DNA of 32,555 nucleotides. It comes from Bacillota bacterium. Its GTDB lineage: Bacteria > Bacillota > Sulfobacillia > DUSP01 > JBFMCS01. This document shows, one piece after another, positions 1,472 to 6,891 of the stretch (position 1 is the first letter of the stretch; every line of letters starts with the position of its first letter). Below the pieces are notes generated by a model, which was given only the letters and a program-made list of their open reading frames with translations, ran no database searches and was not told the origin of the DNA. A program made the translations under genes and the position numbers. Where the stretch lies: contig JBFMCS010000038.1 in NCBI GenBank assembly GCA_040754315.1, positions 1 to 32,555 on the forward strand, given 5' to 3'.

Positions 1472-2537
1472 CCGGTTACGCGTGGCAGAGGAGCGATATG
1501 ACGAGCTCTCACGCCTCCTGGCCGATCCCGCTACTGAGAAGAGTTCCTCGGAGATCCAGGCTTATGCCAGGGAAATCTCCCACCTGGAGGATATGGTCTT
1601 GAAGTATCGCGAGTACAAGAAGGTCATCGAGGAAATCCAGGAGGCCAAGTACCTCTTGAAAGGGGCCGACGCCGATTTCCGGGCCATGGTGGAAGAGGAG
1701 ATAGAGGCCCTGGCGGACCGCCGGGATTGCCTTCAGCGGGAGCTCAGGGTCATGCTGCTTCCCCGGGACCCCAATGATGACAAGAACGTAGTTATGGAGA
1801 TCCGGGCGGGGACGGGAGGCAACGAGGCGGGGCTCTTCGCTTCGGACCTTTATCGCATGTACGTGCGCTACGCAGAGCGTTCGGGATGGAGGACGGAGGT
1901 CATGACCGCCAATATGACGGACATTGGCGGCATCAAGGAAATAGTCTTTGTCGTGGAAGGCAAGGGGGCATACAGCCGCCTCAAGTACGAGAGCGGTGTC
2001 CACAGGGTACAACGCATTCCAGTCACGGAGTCAAGCGGCAGGATCCATACATCAGCTGCCACTGTGGCGGTGTTGCCCGAGGCAGAAGAGGTAGACGTCG
2101 ATATCGATCCTGAGGACCTTAGGATAGATACCTACTGTTCCAGCGGGCCAGGGGGTCAGAGCGTCAACACAACATACTCAGCAATCCGGATTACCCACCT
2201 TCCCACCGGGCTTGTGGTTACGTGCCAGGATGAGAAGTCCCAGCACAAGAACCGGGACAAGGCCATGAGGGTGCTCAGGGCCAGGCTACTCCACATGGCC
2301 GAAGAGGCTCAGCACCAGGAACAAGCCGAAGCCCGCCGTTCCCAGGTCGGTACAGGCGACCGTTCCGAGAGGATACGGACGTACAACTTCCCGCAGGCCA
2401 GGGTCACCGACCACAGGATAGGGCTGACACTGCACAGGCTTGACAGCGTCCTGGACGGCGATATCCTGGCCATAATCGATGCCCTCATGGCTGCGGACGA
2501 GTCTGCCAGGCTTCAGATGGCGGAGGGTAAGGCATGA
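1464..2537 (+). CDS. prfA: Peptide chain release factor 1
   Basis: RF1 reads UAA and UAG stop codons and releases the finished peptide. The GGQ catalytic motif lies around residues 230-232 within a [12 protein letters not shown] context. The stop-codon-reading tripeptide is P-V-T ([13 protein letters not shown]), of the PxT type that marks RF1 rather than the SPF of RF2. The length of 357 residues is normal. I chose ATG 1464 because GGGGGTGG at 1451-1458 is spaced 5 bases from it; in-frame GTG 1455 falls inside that signal. The gene overlaps prmC by 4 bases (ATGA), as usual for this pair, since PrmC methylates the GGQ glutamine of RF1. Confidence 0.97.
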
Positions 2538-3379
2538 GCGAAACCCTGAGCGTGCGGGAAGCCCTGGCCAAAGGGAGGGACCTTCTCAGCGATGGGGGGG
2601 TTGAGGATCCCGCCAGGGATGCCCTCCTGCTGCTGGGTAGTGTGACCCAGGCGGACCCCTACCGCCTGTGGGTGGATGGTGGATGGCTGTCCGAGCCCCG
2701 GCTCTCTCACTTCTGGGGGGTGCTGGAGGAGAGGGCCCACCGTATTCCCCTCCAGTACCTCACCGGGACACAGGAATTCATGTCCCTGGCCTTCCGCGTG
2801 GACCAGCGCGTGCTAATACCTCGGCCGGAAACGGAAATCCTGGTAGAGGAGGCGTTGCGGCTTGCCCAGTTCAGGGAAGGCCCCGTGGTCGTAGACGTTG
2901 GCACGGGGAGCGGGGCAATCGCCGTATCCGTTGCCTACTACTGTCCCTGTGCCCGTGTGTATGCAACCGACATATCCCTGGGGGCCCTGGATGTTGCCAG
3001 GAATAACGCAAAGGCCCACGGAATTGATATCGTGTTCCTTCAAGGGGACCTGCTGGCACCAGTGGTTCTCAAGGCAGACCTCATCCTGGCCAACCTCCCC
3101 TACGTAGCCACAGGGGATCTGGAAGGGATCCAGCCAGAGGTGCAGTACGAACCAAGGCTGGCATTGGATGGGGGACCTGACGGGCTTGATCTGGTCAGAA
3201 GGCTTCTTGACCAGGCGCCGGGCAAGATTAAGACCGGCGGCTACCTTATCCTTGAGGTGGCCCCTGGCGAGGCCGCCCTGGCTCAAGACTACCTGGAGAG
3301 CACCGGGGAGTTCCAAGGAGTCCGTGTGGTGAACGACTACTCGCACAGGCCGCGAGTTCTTGTGGCAAGGAGAGATTGA
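2534..3379 (+). CDS. prmC: Release factor glutamine N5-methyltransferase (PrmC/HemK)
   Basis: PrmC transfers a methyl group from S-adenosylmethionine to the glutamine of the release-factor GGQ motif. The N-terminal helical domain (about 1-90) binds the release factor. The Rossmann domain shows the SAM-binding motif [14 protein letters not shown] (around residue 120) and an acidic D at the end of strand 2 (YATDIS). The substrate-glutamine motif, normally NPPY, reads N-L-P-Y here (residues 187-190), a change inside the most conserved part of the family. The length of 281 residues and the position, overlapping prfA by 4 bases, leave little doubt about identity. It ends 4 bases before the next start. 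Confidence 0.95.
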
Positions 3380-3383
3380 TCTC

Positions 3384-4913
3384 ATGTACAAGGTGAAGAC
3401 CCGTCTCTTCATGACCGATCCATTGAATCCTGGGCCTGAGCTGGACGAGCCTGCCAGGCTGCTCCGGGACGGTGGGCTGGTGGCCTTTCCCACAGAGACA
3501 GTCTACGGGCTTGGCGCGGCGGCTAGAGACGCCCGGGCCATTCACAGGATGTATGAGGCCAAGGGACGGCCCGCCGACAACCCAACCATAGTCCATGTAT
3601 CTTCTCCCGGCGATGTGGAGCCGCTTGTGCAGCAGGTCAAGCCGGTCCACGCCCGTCTCATCGAACGCTTCTGGCCAGGGCCCCTCACACTCATATTCAA
3701 CAGGAGTTCCAGGGTGCCCCCTGTGGTGTCATCAGGCCTGGACACCGTTGCGGTCAGAATGCCCAGGCACAGGGTGGCCCTGGAGCTCATAGCCAGGGCT
3801 AGCGTGCCCGTGGCTGCTCCCAGCGCCAACCTCTCTGGTCGTCCCAGCCCTACCACGGCCCGTCACGTCCTTGATGACCTCGACGGGAGAATTGACGCTG
3901 TTGTGGACGGGGGCCCGGCCGGGGTGGGGGTGGAGTCGACGGTCCTGGATCTCACCGGTCAAGTCCCTGTGATCCTGCGGCCCGGCGGAGTCACCAGGGA
4001 GGCGCTCCAGGAGTTCCTGGGGGAAGTAGAGGTGGCGCCCGGGATACTGGAGGGCGGTGCCGGCTACTGGGGTGTGCCCGCATCCCCCGGGATGAAGTAC
4101 CGCCACTACGCGCCCAGGGCGGAGCTCTGGCTGGTGGAGGGACCCAGAGAGGCCCAGGTGGCCAGGATAAAGAAGATCCTCAGGGACTTGCACGCAAAGG
4201 GGCTCAAGGTAGGTGTGCTCGCCCACCGCGAGACTGCCCACTCGTATGATGCCTTTCAGGTAGTGACCATGGGTAGCTGGGACAGGCCAGACGAGGTGGC
4301 TTCCCAGCTCTTCGCAGCCCTGCGCCAAATTGATGCCTCATGCCCTGACATGATAGTTGCTGAGGGTATGGTGACATCCGGAATGGGTCTGGCTGTGATG
4401 AACCGGCTGAGGAAGGCTGCCACCCGAAGGTGTAACGCAGGCGCTTCCCGCGTGGTTCTCCTGGTATGTACCGGGAACACCTGCCGAAGCAGCATGGCTC
4501 AGGTGATACTGGAGCGGATCCTCCAGGAAAGAGGGCTGGCAGGCTACACGCTGGTCTCCGCTGGCGTATCCGCCTTTGACGGCACACCGGCGACTGCCGG
4601 CGCCGTTTCGGCTGTGGCGGAGATGGGACTGGACTTGTCAGGCCACAGGGCCAGGCGCCTGCAGTGGGACATGGTGGACTGGGCCGACCTCATCATCACC
4701 ATGACAGCAGAGCAGAGAGACAGGGTCCTGCAGCAGTTCCCCGAGGCACGGGGCAAGACCCATGTCCTCCGGGAGTACGTGGGGTTATCCGGTGACGTCC
4801 AGGATCCCTGGAGTTCTGATGCAGAGACATACAGGAGAACCGCTCAGGAAATCAGAAGTGCCCTTGAGCGGCTGGTTGATATCCTGGCTGGGGAGACTGG
4901 TCCAGGGGGGTGA
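3384..4913 (+). CDS. Fused threonylcarbamoyl-AMP synthase (TsaC/Sua5) - low-molecular-weight protein arginine phosphatase (YwlE-like)
   Basis: Two proteins that are separate genes (ywlC and ywlE) in B. subtilis are one 509-residue chain here. Residues about 15-345 form a full Sua5: the YrdC domain with FPTETVYGLG and KGRPADNP, the PSANLSG motif, then the linker and Sua5 C-terminal domain (KYRHYAP onward). It makes the threonylcarbamoyl-AMP used for the t6A37 modification of tRNA. Residues about 355-500 form a phosphatase with the CTGNTCRS P-loop (Cys362 nucleophile, Arg368) and the general acid Asp474 in a DPW motif. Threonine at the fifth P-loop position (Thr366) matches Thr11 of YwlE, which selects phosphoarginine, so arginine phosphatase is more likely than tyrosine phosphatase. 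The reading frame is continuous through the junction. The start is ATG 3384, with AAGGAG at 3367-3372. Confidence 0.92.
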   Translation: MYKVKTRLFMTDPLNPGPELDEPARLLRDGGLVAFPTETVYGLGAAARDARAIHRMYEAKGRPADNPTIVHVSSPGDVEPLVQQVKPVHARLIERFWPGPLTLIFNRSSRVPPVVSSGLDTVAVRMPRHRVALELIARASVPVAAPSANLSGRPSPTTARHVLDDLDGRIDAVVDGGPAGVGVESTVLDLTGQVPVILRPGGVTREALQEFLGEVEVAPGILEGGAGYWGVPASPGMKYRHYAPRAELWLVEGPREAQVARIKKILRDLHAKGLKVGVLAHRETAHSYDAFQVVTMGSWDRPDEVASQLFAALRQIDASCPDMIVAEGMVTSGMGLAVMNRLRKAATRRCNAGASRVVLLVCTGNTCRSSMAQVILERILQERGLAGYTLVSAGVSAFDGTPATAGAVSAVAEMGLDLSGHRARRLQWDMVDWADLIITMTAEQRDRVLQQFPEARGKTHVLREYVGLSGDVQDPWSSDAETYRRTAQEIRSALERLVDILAGETGPGG

Positions 4914-4920
4914 AGATGAC

Positions 4921-5370
4921 GTGAGAGTGGCCCTGGGGGCAGACCACGCCGGGTTTGAAATGAAGCAGGTGTTCAAGGAGCGTTTGCGTGAGAAAGGGGT
5001 ACAGGTTCTGGACTATGGAACCTCTTGCTGCGAGAGCGTGGACTACCCCGATATCGCCCTCCCAGTGGCACGGGCGGTTGCCACGGGGGAGGCAGACCGG
5101 GGAGTGCTGATATGCGGCACAGGGATAGGGATGTCCATTGCAGCAAACAAGGTTCGTGGTGTGCGCGCTGCCCTCTGCCATGATGTGTTCTCTGCAAGGG
5201 TCACGCGGGAACACAACGATGCCAATGTCCTCTGTATGGGGGCCAGGGTCATTGGCCCCGGCCTTGCCCTGGAGATACTGGAGACGTGGCTGGGAACGGG
5301 TTTCTCCGGGGGCCGGCATGTATCCCGTGTCAAGAAGGTTACACAATTGGACGACCTGCGAGACCAGTAG
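4921..5370 (+). CDS. rpiB: Ribose-5-phosphate isomerase B
   Basis: RpiB interconverts ribose 5-phosphate and ribulose 5-phosphate in the non-oxidative pentose phosphate pathway, supplying ribose for PRPP and nucleotides. The protein starts MRVALGADHAGFEMK, has the catalytic cysteine at residue 65 in LICGTGIGMSIAANK, and the HNDANVLCMGAR segment that carries the catalytic histidine. The length of 149 residues is typical. GTG 4921 is chosen because the GGGGTGA stretch overlapping the previous stop is well spaced from it and the family start fits. The gene follows the ywlE-like domain as ywlF does in B. subtilis. The glyA gene found next in Bacillus is absent. Confidence 0.95.
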   Translation: MRVALGADHAGFEMKQVFKERLREKGVQVLDYGTSCCESVDYPDIALPVARAVATGEADRGVLICGTGIGMSIAANKVRGVRAALCHDVFSARVTREHNDANVLCMGARVIGPGLALEILETWLGTGFSGGRHVSRVKKVTQLDDLRDQ

Positions 5371-6082: not shown

Positions 6083-6553
6083 ATGACAAGCGACCAGAGA
6101 CCCGGTTGGGATGAGTACTTCATGGAGGTTGCCCAGGTCGTGGCGAAGAGGTCGACCTGCCTCAGGCGCCACGTGGGGGCCATCATCGTCAAGGACAAGC
6201 GTATACTCGCCACAGGCTATAACGGGGCACCCTCGGGCATGGCTCACTGTCTCGAGGTGGGCTGCCTCAGGGAGAGGCTTCAGATACCCTCGGGTGAGCG
6301 CCAGGAGCTCTGCAGGGGGCTTCACGGGGAGCAGAACGCGATAATCCAGGCATCCCTCTATGGGTTCAGTGTGGAGGGGGCCACCTTGTACACCACTACA
6401 GAGCCCTGCATCACCTGCGCCAAGATGATAATCAACGCGGGGCTGCGCAGGGTGGTATACATGAAGGAATACCCGGACACCCTTGCCAGGCAGATGCTGC
6501 AGGAGGCAGGGGTTGAGTGCTCCAGGATAGAGCGGGAGGAAGCAGGTAGATGA
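6083..6553 (+). CDS. comEB: dCMP deaminase (ComEB family)
   Basis: A zinc-dependent deaminase that converts dCMP to dUMP, the precursor of dTMP. The zinc and catalytic signature is complete: H-x-E in LHGEQNAI and PCxxC in [11 protein letters not shown]. The N-terminal GYNGAPSG loop is the nucleotide-binding element of dCMP/CMP deaminases. The length of 156 residues is normal. The start is ATG 6083, because GAGGTG lies a few bases upstream. The stop overlaps the next gene by 4 bases, which ties it to the MazG-like protein. In B. subtilis the homologue is in the late competence operon, but the name implies nothing about DNA uptake here. Confidence 0.93.
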
Positions 6554-6891
6554 AGAGGCCGGACAGCAAGACCATCGCGCTTCCCCGCCTCAACAACCTG
6601 AGGCCAACGCTGGAATCCACAGCGCTGAAGCTCATGGAGGAAGCGGGCGAGCTGGGTGCTGCCATAGGACGTTTCCGGGGCTATGACCGGTCATCTGAAG
6701 GAAAGACTCAAGAGGCCGAAAGGGCCCTGGCCAGGGGGGTGGCCCGGGAGCTCTTGGATGTCGCCCAGACAGCAGTCACCATGATGTTTGTCCTGGAGGA
6801 ACAGCATGGAGTGACAGTTGAGGAGACGCTGAGCCAGCACATACGGAAACTGGTAGACAAGGAATACCTGAAGATAGATGAGGGGCTGTGA
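6550..6891 (+). CDS. MazG-like nucleotide pyrophosphohydrolase
   Basis: This 113-residue, all-alpha protein has the MazG metal site: EEAGE at about 33-37 and ELLDVAQ at about 70-76, the paired ExxE and ExxD helices that coordinate magnesium. Such proteins hydrolyse nucleoside triphosphates to monophosphates plus pyrophosphate. Being translationally coupled to dCMP deaminase and downstream of upp, it could supply dCMP from dCTP or remove unwanted pyrimidine nucleotides. The substrate is inference only, as the family is broad. It ends the operon; a 0.5 kb non-coding gap follows. Confidence 0.8.

Follow-up and report, generated by a model that had tools for sequence, protein, structure and literature searches.

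Modification of tRNA with t6A begins when Sua5 makes threonylcarbamoyl-AMP (TC-AMP), which TsaD then uses. The wider t6A background, including the evolution of Sua5 and TsaC, is treated in PMC10321239, and the word 'phosphatase' is absent from its main text. In Bacillus subtilis, TsaD is phosphorylated on arginine at R282, and YwlE opposes the kinase McsB, thereby controlling TsaD degradation by ClpCP (PMC7546277). The P-loop threonine that selects phosphoarginine was tested in Staphylococcus aureus PtpB and, as stated in PMC8001253, earlier in YwlE.

We analyzed a 32,555-nt stretch of DNA (the window) from a Bacillota bacterium of the GTDB class Sulfobacillia (contig JBFMCS010000038.1, assembly GCA_040754315.1), in which Sua5 and a YwlE-type phosphatase share one reading frame. 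Judged from sequence, the product is probably a bifunctional protein, born of neighbor-gene fusion, in which a Sua5 TC-AMP synthase is joined to a YwlE-type phosphatase that would reverse McsB arginine phosphorylation.

The fused gene and its two halves

The open reading frame at 3360–4913 (+) is uninterrupted and spans 517 aa when counted from an upstream TTG at 3360. The preferred start is the ATG at 3384, which has GGAGAG upstream and gives a product of 509 aa. On the 517-aa frame, all three Pfam domains (Sua5_yciO_yrdC, Sua5_C and LMWPc) scored far over cut-off. Features of the region, with residues numbered on that frame, are:

2534–3379, + strand: prmC-like gene (PrmC_N), directly upstream
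3384–4913, + strand: fused Sua5-phosphatase gene, begun by ATG and ended by TGA, encoding 509 aa
3459–3986, + strand: YrdC/TsaC-type threonylcarbamoyl-AMP synthase domain (PF01300, 200.6 bits, residues 34–209 of 517)
3990–4421, + strand: Sua5 C-terminal domain (PF03481, 117.1 bits, residues 211–354 of 517)
4422–4454, + strand: short Sua5/phosphatase linker, stop-free and with no persuasive internal start
4455–4874, + strand: low-molecular-weight phosphatase domain of YwlE type, with protein-arginine phosphatase as its predicted activity (PF01451, 100.8 bits, residues 366–505 of 517)
4467–4490, + strand: P-loop CTGNTCRS, with catalytic Cys, Arg and phosphoarginine-selecting Thr, read from the sequence
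4803–4805, + strand: general-acid Asp of a DPW motif, read from the sequence
4921–5370, + strand: rpiB-like gene (PF02502), its GTG 7 bases past the fusion stop

Upstream of the fusion are encoded a DUF1385 protein, release factor RF-1 and PrmC, and downstream of it RpiB, uracil phosphoribosyltransferase and a dCMP-type deaminase. Adjoining the deaminase gene, 6550–6891 encodes a short MazG-like protein that is barely over the Pfam cut-off.

Around the Sua5-phosphatase junction the two other frames contain stops, and GC3 is alike in both halves (0.73 for Sua5, 0.65 for the phosphatase). Internal initiation yielding a separate phosphatase is unlikely: the nearest in-frame start, GTG 4452, sits just before the P-loop, with 4 of 6 AGGAGG bases at a distance of 10 bases. 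At least 27 of the 154 class genomes (this one included), spread over nine family groups, gave a full-length, stop-free fused match, and because the same architecture recurs in this way, assembly error is excluded. An artefact of assembly or sequencing that conceals a stop or frameshift at the junction would be a far-fetched explanation, for nothing was found in its favor in this genome assembly of 65 contigs, and it is opposed by the fused match in at least 26 of the 153 other class genomes and by the similar GC3 of the two halves.

The Sua5 half has both a YrdC/TsaC domain over its family cut-off and a Sua5_C domain. It scored 204.9 bits with TIGR00057 (cut-off 123.2) and 335 bits against Pyrococcus abyssi Sua5 (6f87), with residues 24–348 aligned.

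The phosphatase half carries the C-X4-C-R-S/T P-loop and general-acid Asp of the YwlE group (CTGNTCRS, DPW), with Thr at P-loop position 5. Its top PDB sequence match was 4egs of T. tengcongensis (104 bits), and ranks 2–5 were four YwlE entries, led by 4pic (102.6 bits). Scores with the models for thioredoxin-type ArsC were low (46.8 bits versus a cut-off of 215, and 45.2 versus 174.3), and all NCBIfam tyrosine-phosphatase and arsenate-reductase models fell far under their cut-offs. An AlphaFold2 model of the fused protein had a mean pLDDT of 90.8 and a pTM of 0.74, at which the interdomain orientation is uncertain. The modeled phosphatase part superimposed on YwlE structures with target-normalized TM of 0.91–0.96, the value for the B. 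subtilis YwlE mutant 4etn being 0.96, at 1.0 Å.

That the domain is instead an ordinary tyrosine phosphatase is improbable. Phosphotyrosine does appear in the Pfam name and in some NCBIfam family names, and the description of 4egs calls it a tyrosine phosphatase. Yet the selecting position has Thr rather than the Ile of PtpA-like tyrosine phosphatases (for its role, see PMC8001253), and the NCBIfam tyrosine-phosphatase and arsenate-reductase models fall well short. YwlE also occupies fold ranks 15 and 17–19, in addition to sequence ranks 2–5, and is the first phosphatase in the fold ranking. Finally, phosphatase integrity co-varies with McsB across genomes, as described below.

The cognate kinase is encoded in the same genome, where genes for CtsR (PF05848, 112.3 bits), an McsA-like protein, McsB and a Clp_N/AAA protein are contiguous. 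The McsA-like protein has a UVR motif and scored 190.6 bits with the McsA model (cut-off 210). McsB was found with PF00217 (E 9.2e-74) and NF002194 (450.5 bits, cut-off 385), and matched a solved McsB with 400.6 bits. The Clp_N/AAA protein is incomplete at the end of the locus and is called ClpC-like from its gene position. Since nearly every genome of the class has McsB (143 of 154), its presence here alone proves little. Searching this genome for LMWPc proteins returned two, the fusion and one with the P-loop CVENSNRS (L297:1468–1962, – strand), which scored best with arsenate-reductase models, under their cut-offs. Because the second protein resembles those models most, no candidate for erasing McsB marks other than the fused domain was found in this genome.

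A first-pass annotation of this locus is borne out in part by these results. It had described one continuous frame joining two complete enzymes with all key residues, and the single ORF has three Pfam domains and the catalytic residues; it had noted a YwlE-type P-loop with the phosphoarginine-selecting Thr, which CTGNTCRS carries (role according to PMC8001253). Of the mcsB and clpC genes that it proposed looking for, mcsB and a clpC-like gene are there, with genes for CtsR, McsA-like and McsB proteins and the start of the ClpC-like gene side by side. A sequencing error hiding a stop, named as a possible refutation, is ruled out by the unbroken match in at least 27 of 154 class genomes, and the survey of relatives that it suggested finds the fusion not to be rare. 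As to enzyme class, arginine phosphatase, it was probably right, going by the sequence features above.

The fusion among relatives

McsB is present in 26 of the 27 listed class genomes with the unbroken fused match. Many relatives are unfused, with the Sua5 and phosphatase frames as neighbors. The two frames abut or overlap in L068, L026 and L105 (as stop-to-stop frames, with true starts unfixed), and are separated by a gap of ∼0.85–2 kb in L053 and L059–L061, which are Bacillus-type or related.

To place the fused and unfused states on a 162-row Sua5 tree takes at least 15 changes, counting L011 as fused; this is a quick tree, with 58 of its 159 inner branches open. Given these many changes of state, fusion, and perhaps fission too, happened repeatedly. 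The fusion is thus a recurrent merger of operon neighbors. Two undetermined bases lie at the Sua5-phosphatase junction of L011 (2595–4079), the only such frame of 58 fused. Among the Lachnospiraceae fusions it appeared to be alone in combining an intact P-loop with McsB, and its fusion status is uncertain; we left it out of the fused row count and kept it in the tree and among the intact rows, and the figure of 15 changes treats it as fused. (Lachnospiraceae here denotes the family of L021, the assignment resting on L021; it is the family of G173.)

Our literature search, which covered part of the literature, returned no description of a Sua5-phosphatase fusion or of dead forms, and a word search of an McsB/YwlE paper (PMC8370763) gave no match. 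The architecture may already be listed in protein databases.

Phosphatase integrity and McsB across genomes

Many Lachnospiraceae have a Sua5-linked phosphatase that lacks the catalytic Cys, Arg or Asp. McsB was found in 69 of 299 genomes of the L021 family, and none was found in 230; a second model, NF002194, gave the same count of positive genomes (69/299). We compared active-site integrity with McsB in several sets of loci. The 80 relative loci are the best 80 matches to the window, not a random sample, and the 30 class loci are the best-scoring 30 matches. The 140 Lachnospiraceae regions are match rows 1–131 minus the incomplete G498, plus ten lower rows, four of which (G505, G374, G279, G249) were chosen for having McsB, with nine rows without McsB skipped. 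The P-loop was readable in 169 loci. The 162-row set drops loci with no detectable domain, an unaligned P-loop, a Sua5 piece of <250 aa or an identical Sua5.

Among the 140 Lachnospiraceae regions, 77 carried the domain and a P-loop that could be read, 62 had no recognizable domain near Sua5 and one was unreadable. Catalytic residues were lost in 64 of the 77. All 18 fused proteins in these regions belong to genomes without an McsB match; two of them, L126 and L158, retain all three catalytic residues (Cys, Arg, Asp). Of the phosphatases in this sample that have the strict motif C-x-G-N-T/S-C-R plus Asp, 7/7 come from McsB-positive genomes. Six genomes with contigs of near-genome size (G329, G363, G455, G327, G493, G504) are not among the 69 McsB-positive ones, and the triad is degenerate in 6/6.

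Rows were first labeled by McsB presence. A second labeling called McsB usable if it had NE[ED][DE]H and Cys or Ser at the position of the catalytic Cys, a rule written after viewing the alignment; the NEEDH-like segment and Cys presumably have the roles in McsB that we take over from phosphagen kinases. Motifs were inspected in 20 McsB-positive genomes (9 with degenerate and 11 with intact phosphatase), the others being assumed usable, and nine rows were relabeled, eight degenerate and one intact (L077). Counts below are given in the order intact with McsB, intact without, degenerate with, degenerate without; in the row sets, related rows are treated as independent.

Named genomes with the domain (61, of 72 searched), presence: 28, 6, 5, 22 (Fisher p 6e-7)
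Lachnospiraceae regions, presence: 7, 6, 6, 58 (p 8e-4)
Lachnospiraceae minus the four McsB-picked regions (72 tree rows), presence: 5, 6, 6, 55 (p 0.009)
162 rows, presence: 63, 13, 9, 77
162 rows, usable McsB: 62, 14, 1, 85
162 rows, strict phosphatase motif (Cys or Ser before Arg): 62, 5, 1, 94
160 rows, minus the four McsB-picked regions, presence: 61, 13, 9, 77
160 rows, minus the same regions, usable McsB: 60, 14, 1, 85

Thus, by presence, 63 of the 72 McsB-positive rows in the 162-row set have an intact triad, as do 13 of the 90 others; by the motif rule, the figures are 62 of 63 rows with usable McsB and 14 of the 99 others. Two of the five degenerate loci with McsB among the named genomes, L060 and L061, are so only via a split alignment and are intact in the tree set. 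The five strict-motif exceptions all come from genomes without an McsB match; four are named metagenome assemblies and the fifth, G145, is 81 percent complete.

Pagel's test on the tree favored correlated evolution, with likelihood ratios of 37.4 (presence) and 39.8 (motif) and p ∼1.5e-7 and 5e-8, though this test can overstate the evidence where few clades carry the signal. The conservative independent-pairs test had 9 pairs on supported branches, too few, with a mean of 3.3 concordant and 0 discordant (p 0.25, not significant). On the whole, that phosphatase active-site integrity tracks McsB has good support, short of proof.

Searches of 14 control genomes, B. subtilis included, gave no McsB match in any, and a CtsR match in Lactococcus lactis only. 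In the B. subtilis control genome TsaD was matched, and McsB and CtsR, which this species is known to have, were not; a masked locus is our guess. Because this control gave no match and B. subtilis has McsB (PMC7546277), some of the McsB absences may be false. CtsR was also tried as an anchor for loss of McsB in place, and PF05848 was found in 0/13 genomes, including the McsB-bearing G271, G249 and G280.

Where McsB coexists with a degenerate phosphatase, the kinase itself usually appears decayed. Of the 20 McsB proteins inspected, those that retain the motif pair number 10 among the 11 paired with an intact phosphatase and 1 among the 9 paired with a degenerate phosphatase (p 0.0009); allowing Cys alone, the counts are 8/11 and 1/9 (p 0.01). 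These data point to an apparent co-decay of the arginine kinase and its phosphatase in relatives.

Several loci deserve mention individually. L252, L254–L257 and L265–L267 encode McsB homologues without the NEEDH-like segment and/or catalytic Cys, and are candidate pseudo-arginine-kinases. Genome G268 provides the only row with a motif-intact McsB (L253) beside a phosphatase without the catalytic Cys (L178). Degenerate Sua5 fusions from Lachnospiraceae without an McsB match include L016, L017, L020, L021, L025, L033, L037, L041, L048, L055 and L113–L122, among others.

Possible roles of the fusion and comparison with known systems

Degenerate phosphatases make up 23 of the 50 fused rows of the tree set. 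For one such member, L021, the model had block pLDDT of 89–96 across nearly all of the phosphatase domain, which matched YwlE with target-normalized TM of 0.82–0.88; the dead domain thus appears to fold like YwlE, going by this one modeled member. Among the 40 closest of 435 pairs, degenerate fused domains had a nonsynonymous rate ∼1.2 to 2.8 times that of the Sua5 part of the same protein, and intact fused domains 1.3 to 2.7 times. In the same 40 pairs, dN/dS, where dS could be estimated, was 0.075–0.16 for degenerate Lachnospiraceae pairs and 0.10–0.24 for intact fused pairs; these ratios are rough, with dS >1.2 in all dead pairs, often saturated, and with some of the dead pairs involving L034, whose Cys, Arg and Asp are all in place. 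The degenerate domains share a conserved VVLFPEP-N stretch. They therefore appear, from these comparisons, to be under purifying selection, although the requirement that an essential protein fold properly might account for this by itself.

Joining the two genes may have been functionally neutral, with coupled operon neighbors merged by stop loss and each half doing its own job, without physical or regulatory benefit. We regard this as a real possibility, somewhat short of probable. It fits the abutting or overlapping frames of unfused relatives (e.g. L068, L026, L105), the alternation of fused and unfused states, with 15 or more changes along the Sua5 tree, and the tight operon, with rpiB only 7 bases downstream. 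But fusions turn up repeatedly, in many families, and have lasted even where the phosphatase is dead and apparently under purifying selection, and for the Lachnospiraceae forms plain neutrality does not predict such persistence.

The lasting Sua5 link might also be explained if the phosphatase domain had a non-catalytic part to play with Sua5 or TsaD, as scaffold, stabilizer or phosphoarginine reader, combined in the window with live catalysis. We put this forward tentatively. The large share of degenerate fused rows, the fold kept in the one modeled member, the conserved VVLFPEP-N stretch and the similar dN/dS of degenerate and intact closest pairs all speak for it. Against it, low dN/dS may reflect only folding within an essential protein, dS is near saturation in most degenerate pairs, and the 62 of 140 Lachnospiraceae regions without a recognizable domain near Sua5 show that the domain is dispensable in this sample. 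A fuller version, to which we give a similarly guarded, less than even credence, is that the YwlE domain has a second, non-catalytic t6A function and, after loss of McsB (the case in many Lachnospiraceae), is kept as a conserved pseudophosphatase, often joined to Sua5, acting on Sua5 or TsaD. The window would then represent the live, two-function state.

Our preferred reading remains the bifunctional protein. Here, fusion of neighboring operon genes, in the order sua5, ywlE, would have produced a single protein whose two-domain N-terminal Sua5 makes threonylcarbamoyl-AMP. Its C-terminal YwlE-type domain would strip arginine phosphate placed by McsB and so counteract degradation by ClpCP, with phosphoarginine as the likely in vivo substrate. 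This arrangement may set an arginine-phosphate eraser beside the t6A machinery, including TsaD, which the fused phosphatase might protect locally. The Arg that we take as the R282 counterpart occurs in this genome's TsaD as well as in each of the 22 other aligned TsaD proteins; being general, it does not discriminate.

The first-pass annotation went further, stating that the fusion ties tRNA modification physically to protein quality control. That stronger claim is at most plausible: the frames are already neighbors when unfused, and the same fusion occurs in Lachnospiraceae without an McsB match, mostly with no active site. The latter forms mean that the fusion is not always an arginine-phosphate link and, since all 18 sampled Lachnospiraceae fusions are in genomes without an McsB match, it is not tied to arginine phosphorylation. 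By analogy with B. subtilis, a fusion that links the two pathways, with TsaD as a candidate substrate, is plausible. A natural fusion of Sua5 and a predicted arginine phosphatase fits the McsB/YwlE control of TsaD described for that organism (PMC7546277) and makes the link testable in one protein. The apparent co-decay of the kinase and phosphatase active sites provides evolutionary evidence on what Sua5-linked phosphatases act on. The more surprising result lies in the relatives, where kinase and phosphatase seem to have decayed together and lasting dead versions, still joined to a t6A enzyme, raise the question of a second job.

Compared with known systems, the window protein resembles Sua5 of P. 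abyssi (6f87) and S. tokodaii and T. maritima TsaC2 in having both Sua5 domains, and differs in bearing an extra C-terminal phosphatase of ∼150 residues. TsaN (8ide; a TsaD-TsaC-SUA5-TcdA modular enzyme) and HypF are likewise natural multi-domain fusions with a TsaC/Sua5-like domain, but their names and descriptions mention no phosphatase domain of the LMWPc/YwlE type. The closest PDB sequence to the phosphatase half, 4egs, has a description as tyrosine phosphatase and the molecule name RpiB, so its partner would be RpiB rather than Sua5; this name suggests that the phosphatase may have been fused to its other operon neighbor too. With YwlE of B. subtilis and G. stearothermophilus, the window domain shares the fold, the P-loop C-T-G-N-T-C-R-S, the selecting Thr, the general-acid Asp and McsB in the genome. 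YwlE is a separate small protein, whereas its counterpart here forms the C-terminal third of a Sua5 protein. The window keeps the neighbors and order of the B. subtilis genes ywlC-(mntP)-ywlE-rpiB. In B. subtilis these genes are separate; in the window the gap is gone, and Sua5 and the phosphatase form one polypeptide.
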